This document shows positions 3,265 through 30,168 of a stretch of DNA of 37,598 nucleotides, one piece after another. Both the position numbers and the translations under genes were made by a program. Location of the stretch: contig JAUWTJ010000038.1 in NCBI GenBank assembly GCA_030614785.1, forward strand, positions 1 through 37,598, given 5' to 3'. The DNA comes from Alphaproteobacteria bacterium. Its GTDB lineage: Bacteria > Pseudomonadota > Alphaproteobacteria > M2410. Numbering within the stretch: position 1 is the first letter of the stretch; every line of letters begins with the position of its first letter. A model generated the notes under the pieces. The model had not been told where the DNA came from. It saw only the letters and a list, made by a program, of their open reading frames with translations, and ran no database searches.

Positions 3265-3349
3265 TGGTGCGGATGGAGAGACTCGAACTCTCACTTCCGA
3301 AGAAACCAGATTTTGAATCTGGCGCGTCTACCAGTTCCGCCACATCCGC
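3265..3349 (-). tRNA. tRNA-Leu (anticodon CAA)
   Basis: Read on the minus strand, the 85-nt gene has the acceptor stem GCGGATG/CATCCGC, discriminator A and an encoded CCA (3265-3267). The anticodon arm is CCAGA-TTCAAAA-TCTGG with anticodon CAA. A long class-II variable arm (tttcttcggaagt region) and a T-arm with GTTCGAG follow. The long variable arm and the D-arm with GGTAGACGC fit leucine tRNA. A good promoter lies upstream at 3382-3409 and hairpins lie downstream. Confidence 0.95.
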
Positions 3350-4095: not shown

Positions 4096-4632
4096 ATGGA
4101 ACATATGCGAAAACTCCTCCTTAAAGCATTCTGGCCGGAAGCGGCGATGATGCCGGTTCTTGTGGTTCTGGCCTCGGCCGCCACGCTGGCGACGGCGCAC
4201 GGGTTCGAGCACATCGGGGGCTTGCGCCCCTGCGCGCTATGTCTTGAGCAACGCGGCGCCTATTGGGTCGCCATCGGATTTGGCGCCGCCGCCGCCCTGC
4301 TCTACCGTCAGGATGCTTTGAAAGAGACCATGGTGCCGCGCCTCCTCATCGCGGGTATGGCTCTGGCACTCGGTTATGGTGCATACCTTGCCGGATTTCA
4401 TACGGGCGTTGAGGCCGGCTGGTGGGAAGGACCTGCAAGTTGCACCTCCACGGGTGTGCGCAGCCTTGAGGACATGCTTAAGGACACAGCTGGCGACATT
4501 GTGATGTGCGATGAGGTGCCCTGGGCCTTGTTTGGCATCTCCATAGCGGGCTATAATTTCCTTATTGCGCTGTCGCTGACGCTTTATTCGGCGACCGGAT
4601 TTGTCAGGACGCTGCCAAAGCGCCACGAGTAA
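4096..4632 (+). CDS. dsbB: DsbB-family disulfide bond formation protein
   Basis: A 178-residue, four-TM inner-membrane quinone reductase that reoxidises a periplasmic DsbA-like thiol oxidase. The first redox pair is C46-A-L-C49 in PCALCLEQR, the DsbB signature with its quinone-binding Arg. The second pair is C116 and C138 in the second periplasmic loop (PASCTST ... VMCDEVPW), followed by LFGISIAGYN and the last TM. The start at 4096 has a TAGGTAG ribosome binding site close upstream; the ATG at 4105 is an alternative. It is 8 nt downstream of exoD and 23 nt upstream of coq7, suggesting one transcript. No DsbA partner is in the window. Confidence 0.88.
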   Translation: MEHMRKLLLKAFWPEAAMMPVLVVLASAATLATAHGFEHIGGLRPCALCLEQRGAYWVAIGFGAAAALLYRQDALKETMVPRLLIAGMALALGYGAYLAGFHTGVEAGWWEGPASCTSTGVRSLEDMLKDTAGDIVMCDEVPWALFGISIAGYNFLIALSLTLYSATGFVRTLPKRHE

Positions 4633-4655
4633 AGTGAAAGAGAGTTGAGACCCCG

Positions 4656-5312
4656 ATGGCCCGTCGCCCGGATTTTAGAGAAAAGCCCAAACTGAAAAAG
4701 CTTGATCGCAGAGATATGAGCCTGAAGCGTCCCGGCCTGGCGACCGATCGGACCGGGGCTCAAACTTCGTCGAGCCCAAAGAAGCGGCGCCTGAATGAAA
4801 TGCTGCGGGTTGATCATGCGGGCGAATATGGTGCGGTGCGGATCTATCAGGGGCAGATCGCGGTCCTGAAGGCGCGCAAACGGCGCGGCACGGCTGATGA
4901 CGACATGCTGAAAACCATCCGGCATATGGAGGAACAGGAGCAAGAGCATCTTGCCGCCTTCAACAAGATCCTCAATGAGCGAAAAGTCCGCCCGACGGCG
5001 ATGACGCCGGTGTGGCATGTCGCTGGCTATGCGCTTGGTGCGACCACGGCACTGATGGGCGAAAAGGCAGCGATGGCCTGCACCGCCGCCGTTGAGGAAG
5101 TCATCGAGGAACACTATCAGGATCAGCTTGATACTCTTGATGCGGATGAAGAAGAGCTGCACGCAGCGATCACGCAGTTTCGCGAAGACGAGCTTGCCCA
5201 CCGCGACACGGCGCTGGACCACGGTGCCGAGGAAACGCCGGGTTACCGGGCACTTTCCGGCGCCATCAAGGCCGGCACCCGGCTGGCGATCCGGATTTCC
5301 GAGAGAATCTAG
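4656..5312 (+). CDS. coq7: Coq7-type 3-demethoxyubiquinol 3-hydroxylase
   Basis: A 218-residue di-iron hydroxylase of ubiquinone synthesis that inserts the last ring hydroxyl. The duplicated ferritin-like iron ligands are visible: E in VDHAGEYGAVRIYQGQ, EEQEQEH, then EEVIEEHYQDQL and FREDELAHRDTALDHG. A lysine/arginine-rich N-terminal extension of about 40 residues precedes the core, so the protein is a little longer than the roughly 175-residue core family. The ATG at 4656 follows a GAGAGTTGAGA purine stretch. Alphaproteobacteria often use Coq7 instead of the flavin enzyme UbiF. The stop codon overlaps the stop of the convergent methyltransferase gene by 4 nt. Confidence 0.92.
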   Translation: MARRPDFREKPKLKKLDRRDMSLKRPGLATDRTGAQTSSSPKKRRLNEMLRVDHAGEYGAVRIYQGQIAVLKARKRRGTADDDMLKTIRHMEEQEQEHLAAFNKILNERKVRPTAMTPVWHVAGYALGATTALMGEKAAMACTAAVEEVIEEHYQDQLDTLDADEEELHAAITQFREDELAHRDTALDHGAEETPGYRALSGAIKAGTRLAIRISERI

Positions 5313-6151
5313 AGCGGTTTTGTTGCCTTGATTGAAAAGCTGAGCGGCATGCGCGGCCAGCCTTCGGGCAGGGTCCACATGCCGTCGGGGCGCTCGACCA
5401 TGGCGGGCCACTGGTCATTGCAGGTAAAATCGTGTTCGTGAACGAACTCGATGACGAGACCTTTTTCGATCAGCAGGGTCACGATCCGTCCAAGCTCGAA
5501 GATCCATGAATGGGTGCGATTGTTGTTATAGCTCGTTTCACCCGTCGCATAGGAGCCGCCGCCGTCTTCGACAATTGGATCCTGCTTGTGAAAATAATCG
5601 TACAGGCCATAATAAACCGGCTTGTCGCGCGGAATACGCGTCTCGTCCTGATCGTCAAACAGCCAGATCAGGGGATGAATTTCTGCGATGTAGAAGGTGC
5701 CGCCCGGTTTGACAAAATTGGCAGCGACCTCCGCCCATCTTTCATGATCGGGCAGCCAGCCAAGCACACCCCATGATGTGAAGACAATATCGAACTGTTC
5801 ATCCAGCGCCTTGTCGGCCTCCAGGATGTTGGCCTCGATGAAGCGGGCTTTGATGCCTGTTTTGGCGGCAATCTCCCGCGCGGCGACAATTGCTTCGGAC
5901 GAGAAATCAAGGCCGGTCACCTTTGCGCCGTACATCGCAAGGGACAGCGTATCAAGACCGAAGTGGCATTGCATGTGGAGGAGCGATTTTCCCGTCAGAT
6001 CACCAAGCTCGGCGCGTTCCAGAGTGAGCGGCCGGGGGTTTCCGGCCATGACATCTTTGGCGTGATAGAACGGCGAGGCGACGTGGGACGCGACGCGCTC
6101 ATTCCACCACAAGCGATTGACTTCGGTTTGGTCGATTGGGGATTTGGTCAT
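5309..6151 (-). CDS. class I SAM-dependent methyltransferase
   Basis: A 280-residue protein with a Rossmann methyltransferase core at residues about 50-155. Motif I is LLHMQCHFGLDTLSLA (the usual GxGxG is replaced by QCHFGLDT, as in many UbiE-like homologues). Motif II is VTGLDFSSEAI, with the ribose-binding Asp. FDIVFTSWGVLGWLPD and a KPGGTFYIAE post-motif follow. An N-terminal WWNERVASH helix and a C-terminal Trp-rich tail (WTLPEGWPRMPLSFSI) are typical of a small-molecule methyltransferase group common in Proteobacteria. The substrate is unknown. It is convergent with coq7 and overlaps its stop codon by 4 nt. Proximity to coq7 alone does not make it a ubiquinone enzyme. Confidence 0.8.
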   Translation of the reverse strand: MTKSPIDQTEVNRLWWNERVASHVASPFYHAKDVMAGNPRPLTLERAELGDLTGKSLLHMQCHFGLDTLSLAMYGAKVTGLDFSSEAIVAAREIAAKTGIKARFIEANILEADKALDEQFDIVFTSWGVLGWLPDHERWAEVAANFVKPGGTFYIAEIHPLIWLFDDQDETRIPRDKPVYYGLYDYFHKQDPIVEDGGGSYATGETSYNNNRTHSWIFELGRIVTLLIEKGLVIEFVHEHDFTCNDQWPAMVERPDGMWTLPEGWPRMPLSFSIKATKPL

Positions 6152-6173
6152 TGGGAACGTCCACTTTTATTCT

Positions 6174-6283
6174 GTCATTACCCCTCTCGGGTGTGCAAAG
6201 CACACCCTGCCGGGCAGGGCAAGCCTTGACCCGGTAATCCAGAAAGCCACGCACTGGAGACCCGGGTCAAGCCCGGGTATGAC
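6174..6283. repeat. dispersed palindromic repeat (alphaproteobacterial 'cccgggtcaagcccgggtatgac' type)
   Basis: The element starts gtcattaccc and ends gcccgggtatgac. The inner parts ccttgacccggtaatccag and ctggagacccgggtcaagcc are near reverse complements. The pattern matches a palindromic intergenic repeat seen many times in alphaproteobacterial genomes. It lies between the methyltransferase start and the 3-hydroxybutyryl-CoA dehydrogenase stop, both on minus, so it would be transcribed as a hairpin. Confidence 0.75.
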
Positions 6284-6311
6284 AAAAGAAAAGAAAGAAA
6301 TACCAGGTAAC

Positions 6312-7187
6312 CTACCGCGTCGGGATGGGCGTTCCGCTGCGGTAGTCGTAAAACCCGCGGCTGGTCTTGCGGCCGAGCCATCCGGCCTCGACGTATTTTA
6401 CAAGCAGTGGACACGGACGATATTTGGTATCGGCCAGCCCCTCATAGAGCACCTGCATAATAGACAGACAGGTATCCAGGCCGATAAAGTCAGCCAGTTC
6501 CAGCGGCCCCATAGGATGGTGCGCGCCGAGCTTCATGGATTTGTCGATATTCTCAACCGTCCCGACGCCTTCATAAAGCGTATAGACCGCTTCATTGAGC
6601 ATCGGCATCAGAATGCGGTTGACGATAAAGGCCGGGAAGTCTTCCGCGTTGGTTGGCTGTTTTCCGAGGCGCTGGACAAAAGTCAGGACCTCCTTGTAAG
6701 TCTCTTCGCCTGTCGCAATACCGCGAATGAGCTCGACCAGCTCCATCATTGGCGCCGGTTTCATGAAGTGAAGACCCATGAATTGTTCCGGGCGGTCCGT
6801 TGATGCGGCAAGGCGGGTGATGGAAATCGATGACGTATTGGATGCCAGGATCGCTTCGGGTTTGACGATTTCACACAGCGATGAAAAAATATCGCGCTTG
6901 ACCGCTTCGTTTTCGATAGCCGCTTCTATCGCAAGGTCGATATCGGCAAGGTCAGCCAGGGTATCGGTCGGCTTGATATGGGCCAGGGCCGCTATTTCGT
7001 CGCCGGGAGAGATCGTTCCGCGAGCGACCTGACGGCCGAGATTTGCCTCGATGATGCCAAGCGCTGCGGCGGTTTTCTTGGGGTCAGCGTCAAACAAGCG
7101 CACGTCAAACCCGGCAAGTGCGCAAACATGGGCAATACCGTTGCCCATCTGGCCCGCGCCAACAATGCCGATCCGTTCAATTGTCAT
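6312..7187 (-). CDS. hbd: 3-hydroxybutyryl-CoA dehydrogenase
   Basis: The 291-residue enzyme converts (S)-3-hydroxybutyryl-CoA to acetoacetyl-CoA with NAD(P). It has an N-terminal Rossmann fold with G-A-G-Q-M-G-N-G (residues 9-16), D33 in LFDADPKK, and the ASNTSSISI segment. The catalytic His lies in GLHFMKPAPMMELVELI, and the conserved N follows in FIVNRILMPMLNEA. The C-terminal helical domain ends with GLGRK-like WLGRKTSRGFYDY. Length is normal for the single-domain enzyme (about 280-295). It lies 119 nt downstream of etfA on the same strand, a pairing common in alphaproteobacteria. It is a natural partner of the ethylmalonyl-CoA genes at 21-26 kb because it supplies or consumes C4-CoA intermediates. 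Confidence 0.93.
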   Translation of the reverse strand: MTIERIGIVGAGQMGNGIAHVCALAGFDVRLFDADPKKTAAALGIIEANLGRQVARGTISPGDEIAALAHIKPTDTLADLADIDLAIEAAIENEAVKRDIFSSLCEIVKPEAILASNTSSISITRLAASTDRPEQFMGLHFMKPAPMMELVELIRGIATGEETYKEVLTFVQRLGKQPTNAEDFPAFIVNRILMPMLNEAVYTLYEGVGTVENIDKSMKLGAHHPMGPLELADFIGLDTCLSIMQVLYEGLADTKYRPCPLLVKYVEAGWLGRKTSRGFYDYRSGTPIPTR

Positions 7188-7272
7188 CGTTCACCCTCAA
7201 ATTCCGCAAGCCTGCTCAGGCTCTGTCATACGCAAATACAAAAAAGCTGATCTTTACCGCCGTGCATTTCTC

Positions 7273-7299
7273 TCACAAAACCGGTTCCCACTTTTGTGA
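7273..7299. repeat. hairpin TCACAAAA-N11-TTTTGTGA
   Basis: Perfect 8-nt arms (7273-7280 and 7292-7299) surround ccggttcccac. It is located between etfA and the dehydrogenase on their coding strand. The 'aaaccggttcccactttt' core resembles a short repeat dispersed in alphaproteobacterial genomes. It may modulate read-through or mRNA ends within the operon. Confidence 0.55.
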
Positions 7300-7306
7300 A
7301 TGCCCT

Positions 7307-8248
7307 CTAAAGACCCAACTTCCCAAGTTCTTCTTCCAGTTCCGGAACCGCCTTGAAGAGATCTGCCACGAGGCCGTAGTCGGCAACCTGGAAGATCGGT
7401 GCTTCCTCGTCCTTGTTGATAGCAACAATGACTTTGGAATCCTTCATGCCGGCCAGATGCTGGATCGCGCCGGAAATTCCGACGGCAATGTAGAGATCCG
7501 GAGCGACGACCTTGCCGGTTTGGCCGACCTGGTAATCATTCGGCACAAAGCCCGCATCAACGGCCGCGCGCGAGGCGCCGACGGCAGCGCCGAGCTTGTC
7601 GGCAACCTTTTCGATGATGGCGAAGTTTTCGCCCGAGCCCATACCGCGGCCACCGGAGATGATGATCTTCGCGGCGGTAAGCTCGGGGCGTTCCGACACG
7701 GACAGGTCTTCAGAAACAAATTCTGTCAAGCCCGGGTTGTCGCCTGCGCCGATGGCTTCAACAGCCGCAGAGCCTGTTTCCTCGGCCGATTTGAACGCTG
7801 TCGTGCGAACCGTGATGACTTTTTTGGCGTCGCCTGATTTGACCTTTTGCATGGCGTTACCGGCATAGATCGGGCGCACGAAGGTATCAGAAGATTCAAT
7901 CGCTGTAATTTCCGAGATCTGGGCAACGTCGAGCGCAGCCGCAACGCGCGGCATGAAGTTCTTGCCTGACGTGGAGGCCGGCGACAGGATTGCGTCATAG
8001 TCGCCTGCAAGGCCAACAATGAGCGCGGACATGTTTTCGGCTATTTGCTGCGCATAAAGCGCATCATCGGCCACCAGCACTTTGGCAACACCTGCGATTT
8101 TTGCGGCCGCTTCACCAACGCCGCCGCAGCCGGAGCCCGCGACAAGGACAATAACGTCGCCGCCAAATTCCTGCGCAGCCGTTACGGTCTTGTGGGTGGA
8201 TTCTTTCAGATCAGAATTATCATGTTCTGCAATTACAAGAGTAGCCAT
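7307..8248 (-). CDS. etfA: electron transfer flavoprotein subunit alpha
   Basis: The 313-residue FAD-binding subunit of ETF carries electrons from acyl-CoA dehydrogenases to ETF:quinone oxidoreductase. It has an N-terminal ETF domain ([11 protein letters not shown]) and a C-terminal FAD domain with [40 protein letters not shown] and [22 protein letters not shown], which are the family signatures. Length is typical. Its ATG overlaps the etfB stop by one base (TAATG), so the two are translationally coupled. The likely electron donor in this window is the methylsuccinyl-CoA dehydrogenase at 21.1-22.8 kb, along with fatty-acid acyl-CoA dehydrogenases elsewhere. Confidence 0.96.
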
Positions 8249-8997
8249 TAGAAGGACCCCGCTTCGTTTTTCAATTTGTCGACAAGTTCAGCGACGGATT
8301 CCACAATGACGCCAGCCTGACGGGTTGGCGGCTCGGTGGTTTCGAGAACTTCGAGACGCGGGGTGATATCGACACCGTAATCTTCCGGTGTCTTTGCATC
8401 GATCGGCTTTTTCTTCGCCTTCATGATGTTGGGCAGCGACGCATAACGCGGCTCGTTGAGCCGCAGGTCAGACGTAATGACAGCCGGCATTTTGAGATTG
8501 ATGGTCTGGAGACCACCATCAACTTCGCGGGTCACCGCGATGGTATCGCCTGCCGGTTCAATCTTTGAAGCAAAGGTGCCCTGCGCCCAGCCGAGCAGTT
8601 GTGCGAGCATCTGACCGGTCTGATTTGAATCATCGTCAATCGCCTGCTTGCCGACAATGACCAGATCCGGGTTTTCCTCGGCGACAATGGCCTTCAGGAT
8701 CTTCGCAACCGCGATCGGCTCAACTGTATCATCTGTTTTGACCAGAATGCCGCGATCTGCGCCCATGGCAAGAGCAGTGCGGATAGTTTCCTGAGCCTGC
8801 TGGGGTCCGACAGAAATCGCAATGATCTCCGTTGCGGTCCCGGCTTCTTTCAGACGAATGGCCTCCTCGATGGATATTTCATCAAAGGGGTTCATGGACA
8901 TTTTGACATTGGCGAGGTCGACCCCGCTGCCGTCTGGCTTGACGCGGATTTTGACATTATAATCGACGACCCGCTTGACGGGCACGAGAACTTTCAT
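8248..8997 (-). CDS. etfB: electron transfer flavoprotein subunit beta
   Basis: The 249-residue AMP-binding ETF subunit starts [19 protein letters not shown]. It carries the [16 protein letters not shown] stretch, the [15 protein letters not shown] motif and the beta-subunit signature ([20 protein letters not shown]) near residue 200. It is first in the etfB-etfA-dehydrogenase operon. A GGGAG site sits about 9-10 nt before the ATG, and a good sigma70-type promoter lies at 9041-9069. In related bacteria the adenosyltransferase gene usually lies directly upstream; here a four-gene block intervenes (9.2-13.7 kb). Confidence 0.96.
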
Positions 8998-9040
8998 TGT
9001 TTGGCTGCTCCCAAAACTTCTTGTTTATGTTGCGGTGCGA

Positions 9041-9069
9041 AAAATAGTCTCGGGACGCCCAAGAGTCAA
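9041..9069 (-). promoter_or_regulatory. sigma70-type promoter of the etf operon
   Basis: On the minus strand TTGACT (9069-9064) and TATTTT (9046-9041) are separated by 17 nt. The predicted start is near 9034, giving a leader of about 37 nt before the etfB ATG. The operon therefore has its own promoter and does not depend on the upstream block. Confidence 0.65.
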
Positions 9070-9213
9070 CGCGAAGAACGTGCAAAAAACGGGCTGAATG
9101 CCGCAGTCGGGTTCAGGTTTTCAGAATTTGAACGTCAGCCGGGCGAAACCCGCTGAAAAGTCCCTGAAAACCCCCAGAAAACTCCGGGAAAACTCAGGGA
9201 AACCGGGCGTGAT

Positions 9214-9738
9214 CTACAGGAGCGGCGCGGTTTCGCCATCGGCTAGATGATCGATGAAGGTCTCCAGAACCGTCGTCCACATGACGAAGTTATTGACCAG
9301 ATTGCCTTCGGTGATCCCGTCGGTGAGGTTCATCGGGTATTCGACGTGAGCCTTGCCATCAGGGGTCACGTAGGCCTTGCCGAAAACCCAGGATTTGTTG
9401 AACTCGTTCATCCAGGTGGCGCTGGGATAGGCCTTGAGGTCAAAACTGGCGCGAAACTGCATTTTGGTGCAGCGCACGTCCGTCGAGGGCGCCGCCTTGC
9501 CCGCACATTCAACGCCCCGGACGATAAAGCGGATCTTGCCCTGGCGCACCAGGATCATCGGCTCGCCCTGAACGCCAGATGTGAGCGTCGTATCCAGATC
9601 GGCCGCGCCCAGCAGGGCCGCCATCTCGCGGGTTGAGATATCGCCGTAAAGCTTCGGGGCTTGCGCCATCGCAGCGGGTGCCACCAAAAACCAGGTGCCG
9701 ACAACACAACATATTGATTTTACTGCGAAATTACCCAT
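9214..9738 (-). CDS. YbjN-domain exported protein
   Basis: The 174-residue product has a signal peptide (MGNFAVKSICCVVGTWFLVAPAAMAQA, cleavage probably after AMA). The YbjN-like domain follows, with EMAALLGAADLD, a central MILVRQGKIRFIVRGVEC strand and CTKMQFRASFDL. The typical N-x-x-N-x-x-W-V-F-G-KAYVTPDGKAHVEYPMNL segment and the NLVNNFVMWTTVLETF helix come next. The family has no established biochemical function. The start at 9738 is preferred over 9756 because a GGGGA site lies 5-6 nt before it. It ends the TetR-led minus-strand block and is separated from etfB by 216 nt that contain the etf promoter. Confidence 0.72.
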   Translation of the reverse strand: MGNFAVKSICCVVGTWFLVAPAAMAQAPKLYGDISTREMAALLGAADLDTTLTSGVQGEPMILVRQGKIRFIVRGVECAGKAAPSTDVRCTKMQFRASFDLKAYPSATWMNEFNKSWVFGKAYVTPDGKAHVEYPMNLTDGITEGNLVNNFVMWTTVLETFIDHLADGETAPLL

Positions 9739-9834
9739 GAAATCCCCACTGTTCATCCTGCCTACACCCCGGCTGCGCAGCCAGTATACCTTATGGAAAG
9801 GGGGTGGAGCAAGGGAGCATGAAAACGGGTTGTA

Positions 9835-10905
9835 TCAGGCCCGCGCTTCGAGCACCATATTGGTCGGTGTTTCGGTTGCCCGGCGTACAGCGGAGAATCC
9901 GGCTTGATTGAGAACCTCTGTCAGCTGCTTCTCGCCCGCCTGAGCGCCGAGGGCGAGCCCAACTTCCTGGGACCTGGACGTCGGAACACAGATTGTTGTC
10001 GAAAAGCCATAGAAAATTGCCGCGAGCACGTTGAGGTTCTCTCCAAGGCTGTCGGCGGCGGCTGGTTCGACCACCATGAAGGTGCCATCGGGTTTCAGAA
10101 CTTCCTTGATGTGGGCAGCAGCACCAACCGGGTCCCCCATGTCGTGCAGGGCATCGAATATGCAAGCGAAATCAAAGTCACTTCCGGAGAATTCCTTGGC
10201 GCTCGATACATGGAATTCCACATTCCTGACACCGGCTCTTTTCGCCTTGGATCTTGCTTCATCAATAGAAGGGCCATGAAAGTCAATACCGTGAATTGTG
10301 GACTTTGGATAAGCCTGAGCCATCAAAATTGTCGAGGAGCCATGACCGCAGCCAACATCGGCAACCTTCGCGCCGGACTTGAGTTTCGCCTCAACACCGT
10401 CAAGGGCCGGTATCCAGTTTTCAACCAGATTGGCCGCATAGCCGGGTCTGAAGAACCTGTCGGTGCCGCAGAAACAACAGGGCAGATGATCCGACCAGGG
10501 ACGCCCTTTACCGGTTTTGAATACATCAACAGCGGTTTCGTAACCTGCGTATTGCGCCACGATAGTCTCAAAGAAACCTTGCATACAGGTCGGCTCGCCT
10601 TCATGCGCGAACAGAGCCGCCTGTTCCGGGGATAAACTGAACGTGTCATCTGCGGCGTCATAGCCAACATATCCGGACGCCGCATTCGACGACAGCCATT
10701 CGCGCAGGTAACGCGGATCAATGCCGGACTTCTCCGACAAGGTTTTGTGGGTACACGGCCCGGCTTTTTCAAGAGCTTTATAAACCCCGGCCTGATCGCC
10801 GATATAGGCCATCAAGACACCTACAGCACCGCCAATGTCTCCCAGAACCTTGCCCTGCAATTCGGCAAACTTCGCCTCGTCAAATGATTGTTCACTCACG
10901 TGCAT
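9835..10905 (-). CDS. SAM-dependent methyltransferase with N-terminal winged helix (Rv2258c-like)
   Basis: The 356-residue protein has an N-terminal winged-helix/dimerisation domain (residues about 20-100: GVYKALEKAGPCTHKTLSEKSGIDPRYLREWLS). A methyltransferase core follows: motif I VADVGCGHGSSTI (about residues 178-190), IHGIDFHGPSI, FDFACIFDALHDMGDP and LKPDGTFMVVEP. This two-domain layout is that of Rv2258c-type methyltransferases. The substrate is unknown. It has a GAGGAG site just before the ATG. It sits 35 nt after the hydrolase-glycosyltransferase fusion and is probably co-transcribed with it, which suggests joint modification of one small molecule or lipid. Confidence 0.8.
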   Translation of the reverse strand: MHVSEQSFDEAKFAELQGKVLGDIGGAVGVLMAYIGDQAGVYKALEKAGPCTHKTLSEKSGIDPRYLREWLSSNAASGYVGYDAADDTFSLSPEQAALFAHEGEPTCMQGFFETIVAQYAGYETAVDVFKTGKGRPWSDHLPCCFCGTDRFFRPGYAANLVENWIPALDGVEAKLKSGAKVADVGCGHGSSTILMAQAYPKSTIHGIDFHGPSIDEARSKAKRAGVRNVEFHVSSAKEFSGSDFDFACIFDALHDMGDPVGAAAHIKEVLKPDGTFMVVEPAAADSLGENLNVLAAIFYGFSTTICVPTSRSQEVGLALGAQAGEKQLTEVLNQAGFSAVRRATETPTNMVLEARA

Positions 10906-21112: not shown

Positions 21113-22780
21113 CTAGTTCCGCTCGCCCTCAAGCAATCGCCTTGCGATGACCTGGGCCTGAATTTCGGCGGCGCCTTCGAAGATGTTGAGGATGCGGGCG
21201 TCGCAGAGGACGCGGGAGACCGGATATTCGAGCGCAAAACCGTTGCCGCCGTGGATCTGGAGGGCGTTGTCGGCGGCGGCCCAGGCGACGCGGGCGCCCA
21301 GAAGCTTGGCCATGCCGGCCTCGAGGTCGCAGCGTTTGCCCTCGTCCTTGGAGCGGGCGGAGAAATAGGTGAGCTGGCGGGCGACCATGATCTCGACGAC
21401 CATCATCACCAGCTTGTTGCGCACGCGCGGGAAGTGGAAGATCGGTTTGCCAAATTGCTGGCGATCCTGGGCATATTTCAAGCCAAGCTCGAGGGCCGAC
21501 TGGGCAACGCCGATGGCGCGGGCCGCCGTCTGGATGCGGGCTGATTCAAAGGTTCGCATCAATTGCTTGAAGCCCTGGCCCTCTTCGCCGCCGAGCAGGT
21601 TTTCGGCCTTCACTTCAAACTCGTCAAAGCCGAGCTCATATTCCTTCATACCGCGATAGCCAAGCACTTCGATCTCGCCGCCGGTCATGCCGTCCGAGGG
21701 GAACGGGTTATCGTCATCCTCGCTGCGGGTCTTTTCGGCGAGCAGCATGGAAAGGCCCTTGTAGCCGGGCTCATCAGACGTCCGTGCAAGGAGGGTCATG
21801 ACGTCGGTGCGGGCGGCGTGGGTGATCCAGGTCTTGTTGCCGGTCACCTTGTAGACGTCGCCGTCTTTTTTGGCGCGGGTCCTGAGCGAGCCCAGGTCCG
21901 AGCCGGTGTTGGGTTCAGTGAAGACGGCTGTTGGCAGAACCTCGCCGGAGGCCAGCTTTGGCAGCCAGTGGTTCTTTTGCTCCTGCGTACCGCCGCCAAG
22001 AATAAGCTCGGCGGCAATTTCGGAGCGGGTGCCGAGGGAGCCAACGCCGATATAGCCACGCGACAGTTCCTCGGAGACGACGCACATGGCGGTCTTGCCC
22101 ATGCCGAGGCCGCCGTATTCTTCGGGGATGGTGAGGCCGAAGACGCCGAGATCGCTCATCTGCCCGACCACATCCATCGGGATAAAATCGTCGTTGAGGT
22201 GCCACTGGTGAGCCGGTTCAACGATCTTTTCGTCAGCGAAACGACGGAACTGGTCGCGGACCATGTCGAGGGTCTCATCAAGGCCGGTGTTGCCGAAGGT
22301 GGAAGATCCCGCCTGCTCCTCGATATGGAGGGCGATTTTTGAGCGCACCTGCTGGGTGAAGCCTTGCGTGACCAGGGTCTGGATCGCCGGGGTGCCCATC
22401 AGGGCCAGTTCCTCGCCGGTCAGCCCCATATCCATGAGGCGGATAATCTCGCCCTGGCTCATGGGAATGCCGCCGCCGATCTGCGCGATATATTCGGCGT
22501 AGGCCGCCTGCAGGATCAGCGCCTCTAGTTCGCCGTAGCGCCCTTCTGCCTCGAGCGCCTTTGCCCAACCGAGCATTTCGCGCAAGGCTTCGACATAGGT
22601 TGCGATCCAGGCAAAGCCGTGGGTGATATTCTGGTTCTGCTCGACCAGCGGAACGGCAATCTTTCCGTCTACGGAGACCAGTGCGGTGACATGGGCCTTG
22701 GCTTTTTCAAGCAGGGTGTCGAGCGTGCCGAGGGCGCTGTCGCACAGGGCGAACAAATTATCGAGCAGAGGAGCGGTCAT
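21113..22780 (-). CDS. mcd: methylsuccinyl-CoA dehydrogenase
   Basis: The 555-residue flavoprotein oxidises (2S)-methylsuccinyl-CoA to mesaconyl-CoA in the ethylmalonyl-CoA pathway and passes electrons to ETF. Residues about 1-150 form the extra N-terminal helical region of this subfamily (LFALCDSALGTLDTLL ... ITHGFAWIATYVEALR). The acyl-CoA dehydrogenase core follows (IPEEYGGLGMGKTAMCVVSEELSRG, FTEPNTGSDLGSLRTRA, QIHGGNGFALEYPVSRVLCDARILNIFEGAAEIQ). The extension makes it about 170 residues longer than ordinary acyl-CoA dehydrogenases, as expected for Mcd. The frame is open to 22861, but the ATG at 22780 has a GGAGA site 8 nt upstream. It follows ccr on the same strand, with a palindromic repeat between them. 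Confidence 0.92.
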   Translation of the reverse strand: MTAPLLDNLFALCDSALGTLDTLLEKAKAHVTALVSVDGKIAVPLVEQNQNITHGFAWIATYVEALREMLGWAKALEAEGRYGELEALILQAAYAEYIAQIGGGIPMSQGEIIRLMDMGLTGEELALMGTPAIQTLVTQGFTQQVRSKIALHIEEQAGSSTFGNTGLDETLDMVRDQFRRFADEKIVEPAHQWHLNDDFIPMDVVGQMSDLGVFGLTIPEEYGGLGMGKTAMCVVSEELSRGYIGVGSLGTRSEIAAELILGGGTQEQKNHWLPKLASGEVLPTAVFTEPNTGSDLGSLRTRAKKDGDVYKVTGNKTWITHAARTDVMTLLARTSDEPGYKGLSMLLAEKTRSEDDDNPFPSDGMTGGEIEVLGYRGMKEYELGFDEFEVKAENLLGGEEGQGFKQLMRTFESARIQTAARAIGVAQSALELGLKYAQDRQQFGKPIFHFPRVRNKLVMMVVEIMVARQLTYFSARSKDEGKRCDLEAGMAKLLGARVAWAAADNALQIHGGNGFALEYPVSRVLCDARILNIFEGAAEIQAQVIARRLLEGERN

Positions 22781-22799
22781 GAATTTGTCTCCGGTATTG

Positions 22800-22925
22800 C
22801 CCTTCTCCCTCCGGGAGAAGGTGTCGCATTGCGACGGATGAGGGGCGATGTTGCCGCACATTGAATGTGTTGAGAGGGCGATCCCTCACCCGCCCTTCGG
22901 GCACCCTCTCCCGGAGGGAGAGGGA
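22800..22925. repeat. dispersed palindromic repeat between ccr and mcd
   Basis: The left end ccttctccctccgggagaag and right end ccctctcccggagggagagg are self-complementary and also complementary to each other, flanking a ccctcacccgcccttcgggc segment. This is a common style of bacterial intergenic repeat (REP/MITE-like). It may set differential mRNA levels of ccr and mcd. Confidence 0.75.
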
Positions 22926-24468: not shown

Positions 24469-24498
24469 AAAAAGAAAAACAGGAAAGAGCGTTTGAGC

Positions 24499-26478
24499 AT
24501 GAGTGAGAACAACAAGGACCGGACGAAAGATCGGCCGTGGATTTTCAGGACCTATTCGGGGCATTCCACCGCAAAGGCGTCCAACGAGCTCTACCGGACC
24601 AATCTGGCCAAGGGACAGACCGGGCTTTCCATCGCTTTCGATCTGCCGACGCAGACGGGATATGACTCAGACCACGTGCTGGCGCGCGGCGAGGTTGGCA
24701 AGGTCGGTGTGCCGATTTCTCATGTCGGCGACATGAAGGCGCTGTTCGAGAACATCCCCATCGAACAGATGAACACATCGATGACCATCAATGCCACGGC
24801 CCCATGGTTGTTGGCGCTCTATATTGCCGCGGCAGAAGATCAGGGTGCGGATCGCTCAAAGCTCCAGGGCACGACACAAAATGATATTGTGAAAGAATAC
24901 CTGTCGCGCGGCACCTATGTCTTCCCGCCTGCGCCATCACTGAAACTGACCACCGATGTCATTGCCTTTACCTACCGCGAACTGCCGAAATGGAACCCGG
25001 TCAATATTTGCTCCTATCATTTGCAGGAAGCCGGCGCGACACCGGTGCAGGAACTTTCCTTTGCGCTGGCAACAGCGATTGCGGTGCTTGATACCGTGAA
25101 GGCCTCGGGCCAGGTGCCGCAAGAAGATTTCGCAGGCGTGGTTGGCCGCATCTCTTTCTTTGTCAACGCAGGCCTCAGGTTCATCACCGAGATCGCCAAG
25201 ATGCGCGCCTTTGTCGATCTGTGGGATGAAATTTGCCAGCAAAGATATGGCGTGGAAGACCCCAAGATGCGGCGCTTCCGCTACGGTGTTCAGGTCAATT
25301 CGCTCGGGCTCACCGAGCAGCAGCCGGAGAACAATGCGACCCGCATCCTGCTTGAAATGCTGGCCGTTGTGCTGTCCAAGGACGCGCGGGCCCGGGCCGT
25401 GCAGCTGCCGACATGGAACGAGGCGCTTGGTCTGCCACGGCCCTGGGACCAGCAGTGGTCGCTGCGCACACAGCAGATCATGGCGATGGAAACCGACCTG
25501 CTTGAATATGACGATATCTTCAACGGCTCCCATGTCATGAATGCAAAGGTTGAAAGCCTGAAGGAAGAAGCAAAGGCCGAGCTTGCAAAGATCGAAGCCA
25601 TGGGCGGCGCCGTTGAAGCGCTCGACACGAGCTATCTGAAAGCAGCGCTGGTGCGCTCCAATACGGCGCGGCTGAAAAAAATCGAGTCCGGCGAGCAAAC
25701 TGTTGTGGGTGTTAATGCGTTTCAGGAAACCGCTGCGTCGCCGCTGGCCAATTCGTCAGACGGCGGTATTTTTACCGTGCCAGAAAGTGTTGAGTTTGAG
25801 CAGATCGCACGGCTTAATGAATGGCGCCAGAAGCGAGATGCAAAGGCTGTCACAGCAGCGCTGGTCGAACTTCAGGCGGCAGCAAAAGAAGGCCGCAATG
25901 TCATGGAGGCTTCGATCGAGGCCGCCCGAGCCGGTGTGACCACCGGCGAATGGGGCACGGCGCTGAGAGAAATCTACGGCGAATACCGCGCGCCGACCGG
26001 CGTCATTATTGACGAAGACATGAAGGCCGAAGAGCTCGCCGAAGTGCGCGCGAAGGTCGACAAGGTCTCCAAAAAACTCGGCCAGCGTCTCAAGCTGCTC
26101 GTCGGCAAACCGGGTCTCGACGGTCATTCAAATGGCGCCGAGCAAATCGCCGTGCGGGCCGGAGACGTCGGCATGGCCGTGGTCTATGACGGCATCCGCC
26201 TGACGCCGGAAGAACTTGTCGCCTCGGCCAAAAAAGAAGGCGTCAACGCCATCGGTATCTCGATCCTGTCCGGCAGTCACGTCCCCCTGATGCGCGACCT
26301 GATGGGGCGCCTGCGCACCGAAGGGCTCGACCATCTGCCTGTTGTGGTTGGCGGCATCATCCCCGATGAGGACCGCCTGGTGCTCAAGCAAATGGGCGTC
26401 ACGGCGGTGTTCACACCGAAGGACTATCAGCTGACGCAAATCATGGGCGAGATTGTCGATCTGGTGGATAAGGGGTAG
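24499..26478 (+). CDS. ecm: ethylmalonyl-CoA mutase (B12-dependent)
   Basis: The 659-residue adenosylcobalamin enzyme converts (2R)-ethylmalonyl-CoA to methylsuccinyl-CoA. The N-terminal TIM barrel starts PWIFRTYSGHSTA and contains GLSIAFDLPTQTGYDSDH and LQGTTQNDIVKEYLSRGTYVFPP. The C-terminal B12 domain has GKPGLDGHSNGAEQIA (DxHxxG, with the cobalt-ligating His) and ISILSGSH ... VVGGIIP. The mutase subtype (ethylmalonyl versus methylmalonyl) is assigned from its divergent pairing with ccr. A TTG at 24493 is an alternative start. The last 65 nt (through the TA of the TAG stop) are repeated at 28482-28546, so the present 3' end probably came with an inserted element; the encoded tail is unchanged. 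Confidence 0.93.
   Translation: MSENNKDRTKDRPWIFRTYSGHSTAKASNELYRTNLAKGQTGLSIAFDLPTQTGYDSDHVLARGEVGKVGVPISHVGDMKALFENIPIEQMNTSMTINATAPWLLALYIAAAEDQGADRSKLQGTTQNDIVKEYLSRGTYVFPPAPSLKLTTDVIAFTYRELPKWNPVNICSYHLQEAGATPVQELSFALATAIAVLDTVKASGQVPQEDFAGVVGRISFFVNAGLRFITEIAKMRAFVDLWDEICQQRYGVEDPKMRRFRYGVQVNSLGLTEQQPENNATRILLEMLAVVLSKDARARAVQLPTWNEALGLPRPWDQQWSLRTQQIMAMETDLLEYDDIFNGSHVMNAKVESLKEEAKAELAKIEAMGGAVEALDTSYLKAALVRSNTARLKKIESGEQTVVGVNAFQETAASPLANSSDGGIFTVPESVEFEQIARLNEWRQKRDAKAVTAALVELQAAAKEGRNVMEASIEAARAGVTTGEWGTALREIYGEYRAPTGVIIDEDMKAEELAEVRAKVDKVSKKLGQRLKLLVGKPGLDGHSNGAEQIAVRAGDVGMAVVYDGIRLTPEELVASAKKEGVNAIGISILSGSHVPLMRDLMGRLRTEGLDHLPVVVGGIIPDEDRLVLKQMGVTAVFTPKDYQLTQIMGEIVDLVDKG
26413..26477 (+). 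repeat. left copy of the duplicated ecm 3' end
   Basis: These 65 nt encode the last residues TPKDYQLTQIMGEIVDLVDKG plus TA of the stop. They match 28482-28546 at 64 of 65 positions. The only mismatch (gat versus gac) is synonymous, and the stop codons differ (TAG here, TAA on the right). Confidence 0.95.
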
Positions 26479-26490
26479 AAAATAGGGTAT

Positions 26491-27006
26491 TTACTGCAAA
26501 ACTGGCCAAGGTTTAGGCGCGTCAATTTCCCTAAACACCTCAAATAAACTGCGAGCTCTGACCAAGCGTCCATTATCTGACTTTTCTGGTTTTCGCCGTT
26601 CAGTCTCACCCCAAGGGTCCGGATATCCCTCGCGGCCAAGAAACACAGCTGTTGCCAATAGCTCTAGCTCAACAGCGTCAACATCGGCAGCCAATCTTAG
26701 GAGCTTGTGTTGGTTTTCATCGACCTCTTTGGACACAAAATTGTTCGTTGAATAAATTGAATACGTCCCACCCCATGTGGTTCGACTTTTGCTTTCACTC
26801 AGCAAACCCAGCAGACCTGCATACTTTGTTGCAGTTGCAAGTTCCTCGCTAAATGGGCCGTAATGCTTATAGGCAAAAGTGAAATCCTCTATATATCCCG
26901 CGGATTGCAACAGATAGACGATCTTCTGTAATCGCGTACGCCCTACGACTTGACCGCCTGCTGCGGAGATAATGGAAGCAACTTTTGCGGCATTAGTCCT
27001 CAACAT
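26491..27006 (-). CDS. YwgA-like protein, partner of HD hydrolase
   Basis: A 171-residue protein. The conserved part is N-terminal: GRTRLQKIVYLLQSAGY (residues 22-38), then FAYKHYGPFSEELATATKYAGLLGLL (45-69). RLQK-I-Y-L plus Y-x-YGP-(F/Y)-S-x-EL is the hallmark of YwgA and resembles the DUF4065/SocA ('Panacea') fold found in antitoxins. The C-terminal half is variable and helical, ending with a charged linker and FREIDAPKPWPVLQ. The gene overlaps the HD gene by 7 nt (ATGTTGA), implying coupled translation. In Bacillus subtilis ywfO (HD) and ywgA are also neighbours. Function is unknown; a regulator or neutraliser of the HD enzyme is inference. Confidence 0.75.
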   Translation of the reverse strand: MLRTNAAKVASIISAAGGQVVGRTRLQKIVYLLQSAGYIEDFTFAYKHYGPFSEELATATKYAGLLGLLSESKSRTTWGGTYSIYSTNNFVSKEVDENQHKLLRLAADVDAVELELLATAVFLGREGYPDPWGETERRKPEKSDNGRLVRARSLFEVFREIDAPKPWPVLQ

Positions 27007-28397
27007 GATGCTAGCTCCCCTTTTACAATTCCTTCGACGGCGTCTCTCGCCTCCGAATCGTTTTCAGAAACATACGCCCTGAAAACCTTGAACGACTTTA
27101 ACCCTGCAACGACATGAGATCGATCCCTAAGGTCAACCAATCCACTTCCACCATCAACCCGTACATTTATTTGATCCAGAAATCCCTTTGATTCGTCAAT
27201 AGGTTTGTAGGGAGAGCGAGCTGTTTCGTCGATCAAGATCCGAGGAATTGCGTCTTCATTACCTGACTTCCAATCATCGAGTTTCTCGCGTAATGCCGCG
27301 CACAGCTTATCGATCTTATCAATGTAATCGTCAGAGTTACTGCTCTTGGGATCAATTTTGCTTGCAACCTCGCGCCGGATATCATGGCACTTAAATAACT
27401 TACGATCATGGAGTCTTCTGGAAAATTCAGATACCAAGGGATCTGAAGCACCAGCCAATTGTGTTAGAGCACCGGTTACAACAGCATCATCAAGATCAAG
27501 AGCCACCTCGAGGTCTTCAGGGTCCTTTGCAAATCGGATCAGAGGATGGGCCAATGGCAATCCGGTCTCCTTCCATTTTCCATCCCGAACAAGCTCAACA
27601 ACCTTGACCAATAACTCAGTAAACAAGCATTCAGCACCTCTAGTTGCCTTGTGGAAATAGATCGTAGGGTACAATTGAAACAAACCCATTACATAGGCCT
27701 CCGCCGCATGAATGGCCTTAGGTTCTATTACAAAGGTCTCAATAGACCCCACCTGTGAATCATCGACACCAACGGGCACTTCGGCGATTGTCAAATTTGC
27801 CAACAGCCAAGTAAAATCAATGGCAGAATGCTGCGTACCTGTCATCAACCTATCACGCCTCATATAATCCAATCGGTCAGCATCAAACTGGCTCGAAACT
27901 ACTGCGCAATGCACAGATTTCTTGCCCCTCCCGGCGACAATGTCTGCAACATCACGAGCAAAACCACTCCCCATCTCATTCAGGATGTCGGCAACTTCGC
28001 CATTTTGTATCAACAAATCGCTCATGACTTCGTGATCTGCGAGCTTCAGTTCCAATCGCTTCCCAACACTTTCAAAAGAGTGGCTAAACGGCCCATGCCC
28101 CAAATCATGGACCAGAGCCGCAGCTAAGGCCCTGTGCTCCTTTGACTCCACCCTGGTGCCAGTATGATCCTCAACAATTTTCATCAATTGACGGCCAGTG
28201 TGAAACACGCCAACGCTATGCGCAAATCGAGTGTGGCTCGCACCAGGATATACAAAGTCTGAAAATCCCAATTGTTTCACTCTTCTCAACCTCTGAAACG
28301 GGCGGGTTTGCAGCACTTTCCACAAATTGCGTTCCAGCTCATCGGTGGAAAACTCTATCAAGTCATGCAACGGGTCGCGAATTCTCTGAGTGGACAT
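27000..28397 (-). CDS. HD-domain nucleotide phosphohydrolase (YwfO/SAMHD1-like)
   Basis: A 465-residue protein with a complete HD metal site. The N-terminal IRDPLHDLIEF motif is followed by FQRLRRVKQLGFSDFVYPGASHTRFAHSVGV (arginines plus H55/H60), then H97-D98 in ALVHDLGHGPFSHSFE, and the last Asp in QFDADRLDYMRRD (172-180). This set is that of YwfO/EF1143-type dNTP triphosphohydrolases related to SAMHD1 and dGTPase. A C-terminal region (about 290-465) is less conserved. Depleting dNTPs is a known antiviral strategy in bacteria, so a defence role is plausible but unproven. It has its own promoter at 28423-28450 and is the first gene of the islet. Confidence 0.88.
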   Translation of the reverse strand: MSTQRIRDPLHDLIEFSTDELERNLWKVLQTRPFQRLRRVKQLGFSDFVYPGASHTRFAHSVGVFHTGRQLMKIVEDHTGTRVESKEHRALAAALVHDLGHGPFSHSFESVGKRLELKLADHEVMSDLLIQNGEVADILNEMGSGFARDVADIVAGRGKKSVHCAVVSSQFDADRLDYMRRDRLMTGTQHSAIDFTWLLANLTIAEVPVGVDDSQVGSIETFVIEPKAIHAAEAYVMGLFQLYPTIYFHKATRGAECLFTELLVKVVELVRDGKWKETGLPLAHPLIRFAKDPEDLEVALDLDDAVVTGALTQLAGASDPLVSEFSRRLHDRKLFKCHDIRREVASKIDPKSSNSDDYIDKIDKLCAALREKLDDWKSGNEDAIPRILIDETARSPYKPIDESKGFLDQINVRVDGGSGLVDLRDRSHVVAGLKSFKVFRAYVSENDSEARDAVEGIVKGELASC

Positions 28398-28422
28398 CGC
28401 CTATATGTTCTCTATTTGTTCT

Positions 28423-28450
28423 TTTATACTGGATGTGCAATATATGTCAA
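28423..28450 (-). promoter_or_regulatory. sigma70-type promoter of the HD/YwgA islet
   Basis: On the minus strand TTGACA (28450-28445) and TATAAA (28428-28423) are 16 nt apart, a near-consensus promoter. Transcription would start near 28416, about 19 nt before the HD start codon. It lies wholly inside the islet. Confidence 0.75.
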
Positions 28451-28481
28451 TACAATCATACATGTGAATCGTAATTTCACA

Positions 28482-28546
28482 ACACCGAAGGACTATCAGC
28501 TGACGCAAATCATGGGCGAGATTGTCGATCTGGTGGACAAGGGGTA
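28482..28546 (+). repeat. right copy of the duplicated ecm 3' end
   Basis: Same 65 nt as 26413-26477 with one synonymous change, continuing into a TAA stop. The copy keeps the ecm coding frame although it has no gene upstream of it any more. A hairpin 28 nt downstream (28575-28597) would be the natural end of the ancestral ecm transcript. Confidence 0.95.
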
Positions 28547-28574
28547 ACAGGACAGGCCGGCAGCCAACGCGCGA

Positions 28575-28597
28575 AGGCAATAGATGTCGTATTGCCT
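28575..28597. terminator. hairpin AGGCAATA-gatgtcg-TATTGCCT between ecm tail and kinase gene
   Basis: A perfect 8-bp stem with a 7-nt loop just after the duplicated ecm tail; its last base is shared with the stop codon of the convergent kinase gene. There is no T-run, so intrinsic termination would be weak. Its place suggests the original junction between ecm and the kinase. Confidence 0.45.
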
Positions 28598-30168
28598 CAG
28601 GCGAGCACTTCTTCGCTCGGCGGCGCCAGCGGCAACTCGATCCAGAACGTGCTGCCGACGCCCTCCTGGCTGACAAATCCGATCCGGCCAGCCATGTGCT
28701 CGACAAGGAACTTTGTCACTGTCAGGCCAATACCAGCGCCCTCATGTGCCAGAGTAGAGGCCAGCCCGAGACGATCGAACATCCGGAACACTCTTGCGTG
28801 ATCCTTTTCGGCGATGCCGATACCGGTATCTGTCACAGACAGGCGCAGAAAGCCTTTTCCGGTTTCGCGGCCTTCAACAGTGACCGTTCCGCCTTGCCGG
28901 TTGTATTTAACCGCATTGGAAAGAAGATTGATGAGAACCTGTTTGAGACGCAGCTTGTCGGCGCGAAGATGGGTCGATGGTCCGCCAGTGAATTCGTCGA
29001 TAATCTGTACGCCCTTCGGTGCCCCCAGCGGAAACGCCATGGCCACGCACTCTGCAACCACTTCGCTGGCATTGACATCTTCAAGAGAAAGATCAAGCTG
29101 ATCGGCTTCAATCCTGGCCAGATCAAGCACCTGATTGACGAGCTCGAGCAGATGATTGCCGCCGCCAAGAATGTGATCGATGTGCTCAATCTGATGAGGC
29201 GAAAGTCGATTTTGGGGGTCTGCCCGCAAGATCTGGGCGAATCCAAGGACGGCATTGAGGGGCGTTCGCAGCTCGTGGCTCATGCTTCGGAGAAATTCAG
29301 ACTTGGCACGGCTGGCAGCCTCCGCCACATCGAAGAGACTGCGGGATCGCTCCTCGCTCTTTTGCAACGCTGCATAGGGCTCCTTCAAATGAGAAATGAC
29401 CACCGCCTGGAAAATCAGCCAGAAGGAAAACAGCTTGAAAATATGCCCGGTCAGGTTTGAAAAACCGTAGACATCAACGTAGAATGTAAAAGCAAGTTCC
29501 GCACACATTGTCATGAAGATGGAAGTGGCAATCAAGGCCTTTTCGCCTGTCGATATATCCCGGCCGTACCGCAGCAGCGTGACGAGCGCCAGGAGTAACA
29601 CCAGATTAATCGCGTATTCGCTATAGATCTTGAAGTTGGTAAGACCCTCGCCCTCGATGAAGCCAGTTGGAAAATTCCCCGTAAAGATCAAAATTGCCAG
29701 CCCCGCAGCAATAACCCCGAAGATCGTGAGGAGAAAATATTCGTTTTGCTTTTGTGTTGTCGCAAAAGGAGCGATGAGCAGGACCAGGGCCTCGAAATAG
29801 CGAGCGCTGATCCAGAACTGAACCGACAGGTTCCCGCTGCCTTCGATAAAGACATCCATCCCCTTGTAGACAAGAGTATGGATCAGATCGAGCGCGCCAA
29901 TCCAGAAATAACCACAGGCCAGGAAGAGCAGGAAATTATTTCTGGTGAATTTGCGTGTCGACCAGGCAAAGGCAAAAATGAGAAACGAAATCACGATCGC
30001 GAAAAGTTCGGCGAAGGTGTGGAAAGCCAGAAAGCTGTATCGGGCAACAACAATCAGGAAGACAGCTGCGGCGGCCGGGGGAGCCCACAATCGCCAGTCC
30101 ACGAGTGGCTCAAACCATTTTTCCTGATTAATCAACGTCCAGCCCTGTTTCCGCAGGATATCTTCCAT
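28597..30168 (-). CDS. MASE3-type membrane sensor histidine kinase
   Basis: A 523-residue kinase. Residues 28-265 contain about seven TM helices with the MASE3 pattern (FHTFAELFAIVISFLIFAFAW, FLACGYFWIGALDLIHTLVYKGMDVF, QFWISARYFEALVLLIAPF). A short coiled linker (AALQKSEERSRSLFDVAEAAS) precedes HisKA with H298 in SMSHELRTPLNAVLG. The HATPase carries NLLSNAVKYN, DTGIGIAEKD and GAGIGLTVTKF. No receiver domain and no nearby response regulator are present. The ATG at 30168 has AGCAGG directly before it, so the spacing is poor and the start is not certain. MASE3 ligands are unknown. Confidence 0.88.
   Translation of the reverse strand: MEDILRKQGWTLINQEKWFEPLVDWRLWAPPAAAAVFLIVVARYSFLAFHTFAELFAIVISFLIFAFAWSTRKFTRNNFLLFLACGYFWIGALDLIHTLVYKGMDVFIEGSGNLSVQFWISARYFEALVLLIAPFATTQKQNEYFLLTIFGVIAAGLAILIFTGNFPTGFIEGEGLTNFKIYSEYAINLVLLLALVTLLRYGRDISTGEKALIATSIFMTMCAELAFTFYVDVYGFSNLTGHIFKLFSFWLIFQAVVISHLKEPYAALQKSEERSRSLFDVAEAASRAKSEFLRSMSHELRTPLNAVLGFAQILRADPQNRLSPHQIEHIDHILGGGNHLLELVNQVLDLARIEADQLDLSLEDVNASEVVAECVAMAFPLGAPKGVQIIDEFTGGPSTHLRADKLRLKQVLINLLSNAVKYNRQGGTVTVEGRETGKGFLRLSVTDTGIGIAEKDHARVFRMFDRLGLASTLAHEGAGIGLTVTKFLVEHMAGRIGFVSQEGVGSTFWIELPLAPPSEEVLA

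Follow-up and report, generated by a model that had tools for sequence, protein, structure and literature searches.

Insertion of a two-gene islet with a replacement gene end at the 3' end of ecm in an alphaproteobacterium

How do two genes come to lie directly behind a metabolic gene whose last codons stand on both sides of them? The question is raised by a 37,598-nt stretch of DNA from an alphaproteobacterial draft genome (assembly GCA_030614785.1, contig JAUWTJ010000038.1), hereafter the window. In it, the acyl-CoA mutase gene ecm is followed by a 2-kb islet of two overlapping genes and then by a second copy of its own 3' end. An insertion at the end of ecm that supplied a replacement gene end is well supported. 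On balance, we lean towards the view that a horizontally acquired two-gene module entered there by 'insertion with long target duplication'.

The duplicated ecm end and the DNA between its copies

Direct comparison confirmed the repeat on which the original prediction had been built. The 65 nt at 26413-26477 and 28482-28546 are identical at 64 positions, and the sole mismatch (GAT/GAC) is synonymous. An in-frame stop closes each copy, TAG at 26476-26478 for copy 1 and TAA at 28545-28547 for copy 2. The chance expectation for such a repeat pair in 10 kb is about 3e-28 by a simple independent-letter estimate, and a search of the whole 3.86-Mb genome with the 65-mer found two places, both within the window, and no third copy. 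The islet is interior to its 37.6-kb contig, away from the contig ends. The features concerned are:

24493-26478, + strand: ecm, acyl-CoA mutase of the coenzyme-B12 type, 661 aa, intact, with its final codons inside copy 1 (MM_CoA_mutase 1.8e-132; B12-binding 3.3e-14)
26413-26478, + strand: copy 1 of the ecm 3' end, 65 nt and the final stop base, functional gene end (repeat comparison)
26479-28481, no strand: inserted DNA, 2,003 bp, 46.7% G+C (composition; boundaries from the repeat)
26491-27006, - strand: 171-aa relative of the DarG C-terminal part; macro domain not seen (PADLOC DarG 6e-9)
27000-28397, - strand: 465-aa SAMHD1-like HD-domain protein (PF01966 1.5e-9; 2o6i_A 1e-42 by sequence)
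28482-28547, + strand: copy 2 of the ecm 3' end, displaced remnant, probably followed by the original downstream DNA (repeat comparison; read as the native end by analogy with loci G145 and G006, below)

The two genes fill the insert, overlapping by 7 bp, and the stop of the smaller one lies 12 bp from the ecm stop. G+C content is 46.7% in the insert and 56.2% in the remaining window. The overlapping genes and the AT-rich composition that had been described at this locus therefore stand, while the promoter described with them is weak evidence, because the scanned region holds seven sigma-70-like matches where shuffles gave 3.1 +/- 1.7. The original prediction also supplied the name ethylmalonyl-CoA mutase; the only NCBIfam models that passed their cut-off for ecm were the two methylmalonyl-CoA mutase domain models.

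The DNA behind ecm was then compared in 132 other genomes, each gene tail being aligned with up to 6 kb downstream. This sample came from 113 non-window genomes with ecm (100 fetched, 13 with lower or partial matches left out) and from 37 family matches (four in the earlier set, 32 added, and G410, a partial match, left out). The flank is shorter than 1.5 kb in six of the 132 and shorter than 2.2 kb in eight, so that an islet of this kind could not be shown there. Repeats of the ecm tail stood out in two loci, G006 (score 133) and G145 (score 68), next to a score of 63 for the window and 18.8 for the next locus. In G006, a duplication with 146/157 nt identical encloses one lipoprotein-like open reading frame (ORF); in G145, one with 79/88 nt identical encloses genes for TcmP and a Gp37-type protein. 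These names, like Gp37/DUF5131, xerD, GNAT and XerC/XerD below, are readings of the sequence. Duplication lengths thus differ (65 nt in the window, 88 nt in G145 and 157 nt in G006), as do the left boundaries relative to the stop (-66, -90 and -182). Further elements with the same 65-nt boundaries, which had been named as possible support, were not what the comparison returned: both additional scars lie at ecm, but at 88 and 157 nt.

Sites without an insert were found for both. For G145, three of the six congeners compared (G012, G389 and G390) carry the copy-2 flank after a single ecm end, and the other three differ there; for G006, both congeners (G141 and G239) have a relative of the post-copy-2 gene directly behind ecm. 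Because the single ecm end of these congeners adjoins the flank found after copy 2, the analogous reading for the window is that copy 2 is most likely the native ecm end and that copy 1 arrived with the insert. In G145 and G006, the two copies are closest in their central part and diverge towards either end, as would be expected if two diverged homologous ends had recombined.

Three further features lie near the right boundary of the insert:

28439-28468, - strand: weak promoter-like match upstream of the HD gene (sigma-70-like, 10/12)
28575-28597, + strand: hairpin with an 8-bp stem, 27 nt after copy 2 (stem predicted)
28597-30168, - strand: MASE3 histidine kinase, a flanking gene outside the insert (domain match)

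The hairpin is perhaps the old ecm terminator. A 64-nt stretch around it was no more stable than shuffles (z -0.77), and a terminator scan of 26300-28700 found none. Elsewhere in the window, a 23-nt inverted repeat (22801-22823/22902-22924, 91% complementary) overlaps the 5' end of the ORF at 21113-22861, whose true start may be further in.

Routes by which the islet may have reached ecm

In the route that we favour, the incoming DNA would have brought the module together with a preceding copy of the ecm 3' end, and homologous recombination between this copy and the resident ecm would have joined one side at the gene end. The other side would have closed in the resident ecm tail, either through an illegitimate joint or owing to circularity of the incoming DNA. 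The incomer's gene end would keep ecm intact, as copy 1, and the resident end would be left downstream of the cargo, as copy 2. A recombinase of its own would not be needed. Homologous recombination at the gene end is favoured because the duplications vary in length and boundary, the cargoes are unrelated, no tyrosine integrase was found and the copies are most alike in mid-length.

A profile of 31 integrases from related genomes detected no tyrosine-integrase-like ORF in the insert, the window or the 132 ecm flanks (serine recombinases and transposases were not searched for), and a motif scan of 100 ecm flanks found no integrase. That the insert lacks an integrase of its own, as had been proposed, accordingly holds for the tyrosine type. 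Integrases whose islands end at ecm, for which a search had been suggested, were not found among the 132 flanks, again for the tyrosine type. A single integrase acting on the ecm end is weakened as an explanation by the two scans. The genome itself has two PF00589 matches, which we read as XerC- and XerD-like.

The main rival, possible but clearly less probable in our judgement, is that the islet is a leftover or non-autonomous passenger of an integrase island whose recombinase was lost or acts in trans, the copies being the attachment sites attL and attR. A replacement end, a displaced fragment and a match ending at the stop codon are the anatomy of gene-end islands. Furthermore, the ecm end recurs in three families, and 2/131 ecm ends (the true total is 132) compared with none among some 2,150 other gene ends gives a Fisher p of 0.003 with rows sorted by eye. 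This rival is opposed by the absence of a tyrosine-integrase-like ORF from the insert and the 132 flanks (serine recombinases not having been searched for), by the Xer-like nature of the genome's two PF00589 matches, and by the three duplication lengths and left boundaries. The similarity in G006, moreover, starts about 180 nt before the stop, which is long for an att core, and the cargo is unrelated across the three cases.

Loci elsewhere with related cargo bear on both routes. For the Gp37 protein of G145, 20 of the 34 other genomes with a relative were sampled, and in three of the 20 loci the module lies between duplicated pieces of another gene. L338 has about 170 nt of the start of a xerD-like gene in duplicate, L339 has 118 nt of a GNAT-like gene's end around 5.4 kb of cargo, and L326 has 39 nt of the tRNA-Gln 3' end. 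Within the 20 loci, the integrase profile matched only the xerD-like gene of L338 and its fragment, and neither L339 nor L326 has a tyrosine-integrase-like ORF within 5 kb. A TcmP relative was found by tblastn in five of the 20, and the neighbours in L326 and L339 are TcmP-like by our own reading of the sequence. In L339 (2143-4542), the Gp37 and TcmP-like genes share the 5.4-kb insert with ORFs of 519 and 279 aa, between the duplicated acetyltransferase-like gene ends. As G145-like modules sit at other gene starts and ends, including that of a tRNA gene, a target restricted to ecm is not supported.

Islets at tRNA ends without a nearby tyrosine-integrase-like ORF, in L326 and in the control locus L209, favour the integrase island. 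The L209 islet lies at the 3' end of a tRNA-Leu(CAA) gene (4510-4596) behind ecm, with a 70-nt duplication. A tRNA-Leu(CAA) gene stands 4.5-12.5 kb behind ecm in 16 of the 115 flanks over 5 kb, where it makes up 16 of the 23 tRNA genes; the window has one at 3265-3349 (- strand). The original prediction had taken ecm for an attachment site. Insertion behind ecm, an intact gene end and a displaced copy all stand, but an attachment site of one element family does not, the lengths and boundaries being different. An ecm-specific site is not established; an integrase that was lost or acts in trans is a rival reading, of which the tRNA-end islets of L326 and L209 look like examples.

The HD gene of the islet and its partner provide a second comparison, in 80 homologous loci kept from 88. 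The 31-integrase profile matched three of these (L051, 1e-53; L106, 8e-10; L044, 4e-4), and a first profile of 11 sequences had matched L051 only. L106 also supports the integrase island: at 4244-10283 there, the HD/DarG-like pair is part of an island with a tyrosine-integrase-like ORF, adjoining tRNA-Leu(CAA) and between 117-nt repeats. Within 2.5-kb flanks, good repeat scores were obtained only for the window and L043, with weak repeats in L064 and L068. In L043, the neighbour of the pair is TcmP-like, and some 40 nt of this neighbouring gene recur beyond the pair (7912-7955/10874-10917). The idea that the HD pair habitually inserts at gene ends was weakened by a stricter, wider scan, which gave L043 and L106 among 57 usable loci.

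As a background, 3.0% of 1,480 random segments drawn from control loci were spanned by repeats; these came from 5 of the 74 loci. A general scan for gene-end duplications in 212 loci (2.56 Mb) returned 15 rows, namely the window, L125, L194 and 12 others. No clean gene-end scar was found in the 212 loci beyond the three at ecm. L133, L184 and L228 were rejected as paralogues, L163 and two L176 pairs because the similarity extended, and L192 and L043 (- strand) as local repeat arrays. Isolated ambiguous repeats were one L176 pair (226 nt, 78%) and, in the control set, L189.

Several of our results weigh against homologous entry behind an imported gene end. The copies in the window are near-identical throughout and end at the stop codon, which also fits a site-specific recombinase that uses the gene end. 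No clean empty site was found for the window: its nearest relatives G001 and G003, with 85% and 83% identity in ecm, carry ecm without the islet, but the gene behind it is not the kinase gene. A genome that might have been the donor, with the module behind a near-identical ecm, was not found, so that the joint could not be examined for microhomology. A degenerate ecm-tail pattern matched 26/61, 12/17 and 335/390 further genomes (373/468, some of them already in the class sample), and no neighbouring pair of tails occurred among the matches listed in the 373. Pairs may be missed, because the pattern, preceded by A, matches only 105 of the 132 known tails. Five genomes with two matches were re-searched, and the matches lay on different contigs or about 970 kb apart; G340 and G763 have two matches each, on different contigs.

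The same holds for the related loci. The gene duplicated in L338 is itself a Xer-type tyrosine recombinase, and the 39-nt tRNA 3'-end duplication of L326 and the 70-nt duplication of L209 resemble classical integrase scars. Enrichment at Gp37 loci is weak, 3/20 giving a binomial p of 0.02 against 3.0% of draws and a Fisher p of 0.23 against 5/74 loci. A p of 0.03 (3/20 vs 1/74) is reached only after control paralogues, arrays and an ambiguous repeat are removed by eye. Of the 57 HD loci with enough flank, only L043 and L106 are spanned by repeats, and one of them, L106, has the integrase-like ORF. Two wider ideas were also set aside. The absence of a neighbouring tail pair among the matches listed in the 468-genome search rejects, or at least weakens, ecm as a frequent hot spot, and viral carriage of the window's ecm end found no support in IMG/VR, where the degenerate pattern matched nothing.

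A stronger form of homologous entry, which we consider rather unlikely, is that the islet moves repeatedly as a RecA-dependent circle. The copies would recombine, the islet would be excised with one gene end, and a single crossover would return it into any ecm. The structure permits this; the copies are 64/65 identical, and the middle blocks are well conserved in G145 and G006. However, 65 nt is short for efficient recombination, and no circle, second strain or clean empty site was seen for the species of the window. That the structure is a misassembly, or a tandem duplication that arose locally without gene transfer, is very improbable. The assembly is a draft of 148 contigs, but there is a one-base difference between the copies, the 2 kb enclosed by them deviate in composition, and G145 (two contigs) is built in the same way, with empty sites in its congeners G012 and G389, whose assemblies are single contigs.

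Entry of the module by homologous recombination at the gene end could be extended to a general proposal, which we put forward as a speculation only. Small defence-type pairs might travel as integrase-free islets with a copy of a core-gene end, using host homologous recombination to enter and leave; any conserved gene end might serve as attachment site, and ecm would be a recurrent one in the class of this genome.

The HD protein and its DarG-like partner

The nearest solved structure by sequence to the 465-aa protein is the Enterococcus faecalis HD protein 2o6i (1e-42). Its predicted structure (predicted local distance difference test, pLDDT, 91.5) has 2o6i_A as the top fold match (E 2.5e-23) and also matches SAMHD1. 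In an alignment of 39 sequences, the HD-motif residues H55, D98, D172 and D174 are invariant and H97 is nearly so. Motif and modelled fold indicate that the protein is probably a deoxynucleoside triphosphate (dNTP) triphosphohydrolase.

The 171-aa protein covers only positions 164-290 of the 329-position PADLOC DarG profile, which is matched by 50 of the 51 aligned members of its family; no Pfam family matched it at E 0.1. Its AlphaFold model (pLDDT 96.2) aligned with 7yk3_D, a chain of a DarTG complex, with a Z score of 10.8 over 154 residues, and the next row scored 5.9 in this VIA-align list, which is a re-ranking of Foldseek matches only. The structure output gives no chain name, and chain D is taken as DarG because the small protein matches DarG profiles.

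Both genes were present in 77 of the 80 homologous loci. The small protein is absent from L083, L105 and L108 because the HD match itself reaches the contig end there; in L090, the contig is cut inside the small gene. The distance between the HD match and a small-protein match is at most 254 nt in all 77 loci; L096 has two small-protein matches, of which the better-scoring one is 1.7 kb off. In three of eight IMG/VR loci (L285-L287), the HD gene clearly has a small-protein relative next to it, and in another three the relative is weak or partial. The conserved pairing, the relation to an antitoxin and the dNTPase-type fold together suggest that the cargo is most likely a defence or toxin-antitoxin-like module, in which the DarG-like partner would hold a dNTP-destroying HD enzyme in check. 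A limited literature search found no description of an HD protein and a DarG-like partner as a pair.

Relation to known systems

Recurrent gene-end scars together with empty sites bear on how very small defence modules spread without a recombinase of their own, and they provide a definite pattern for genome-wide searches.

DarG binds DarT through its C-terminal part. The pair in the islet is like DarTG in that the small protein matches the C-terminal part of the DarG profile and a chain of the complex 7yk3. It is unlike DarTG in that no macro domain was seen and the neighbour is an HD protein rather than DarT. The closest functional analogue found is Clover, an anti-phage system in which a dGTPase is restrained by a nucleotide, p3diT, made by the partner nucleotidyltransferase CloB (PMC12265719). 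Both comprise two genes, in Clover for an HD dNTPase effector and a partner that restrains it, and in our case for a probable HD dNTPase and a partner that would do so. They differ in that the partner is a nucleotidyltransferase in Clover and DarG-like here, and the likeness of the HD proteins is drawn from a SAMHD1-like fold and motif rather than from comparison with CloA. If the DarG-like partner inhibits the HD protein, it would be a protein counterpart of Clover's nucleotide inhibitor.

In its anatomy, the islet resembles integrase islands in gene and tRNA ends, such as those of Islander (PMC4383910) and SGI1 at the trmE 3' end (PMC8409611), where, as described, the target is restored and a displaced fragment lies at the far end. 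Unlike tyrosine-integrase islands, the insert has no tyrosine-integrase-like ORF, and the boundaries vary, which different integrases in each lineage could also cause.

Homology-facilitated illegitimate recombination has been put forward as a model for type VI secretion system effector arrays, in an account that also cites C-terminal displacement in rhs genes (PMC5361080). One homologous anchor, one illegitimate joint, the insertion of new cargo and an old part moved downstream are common to that model and to the one proposed here. In the arrays, as that account has it, replacement affects a toxin gene or toxin domain and leaves the old immunity genes in place, whereas at ecm a redundant end of a metabolic gene is displaced and the protein is unchanged.

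That such an element is not known to have been described, as the original prediction had it, holds only in part: insertion with long target duplication is on record for restriction-modification genes (Nobusato et al. 2000, from the Kobayashi group, as cited in PMC3031569 and PMC1643837). As summarized in these two papers, a gene complex is flanked by long, variable direct duplications of host sequence, as genome comparison suggested; the passages that describe it name no recombinase, and the cargo is of the addiction or defence type. The published cargo is a restriction-modification system (in Helicobacter, PMC1643837), whereas the three loci described here carry an HD/DarG-like pair, a TcmP-Gp37 pair and a lipoprotein-like gene, and all lie behind ecm in members of a single bacterial class. 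With an HD and a DarG-like protein in place of restriction-modification genes, the islet would therefore work alike with a different cargo.

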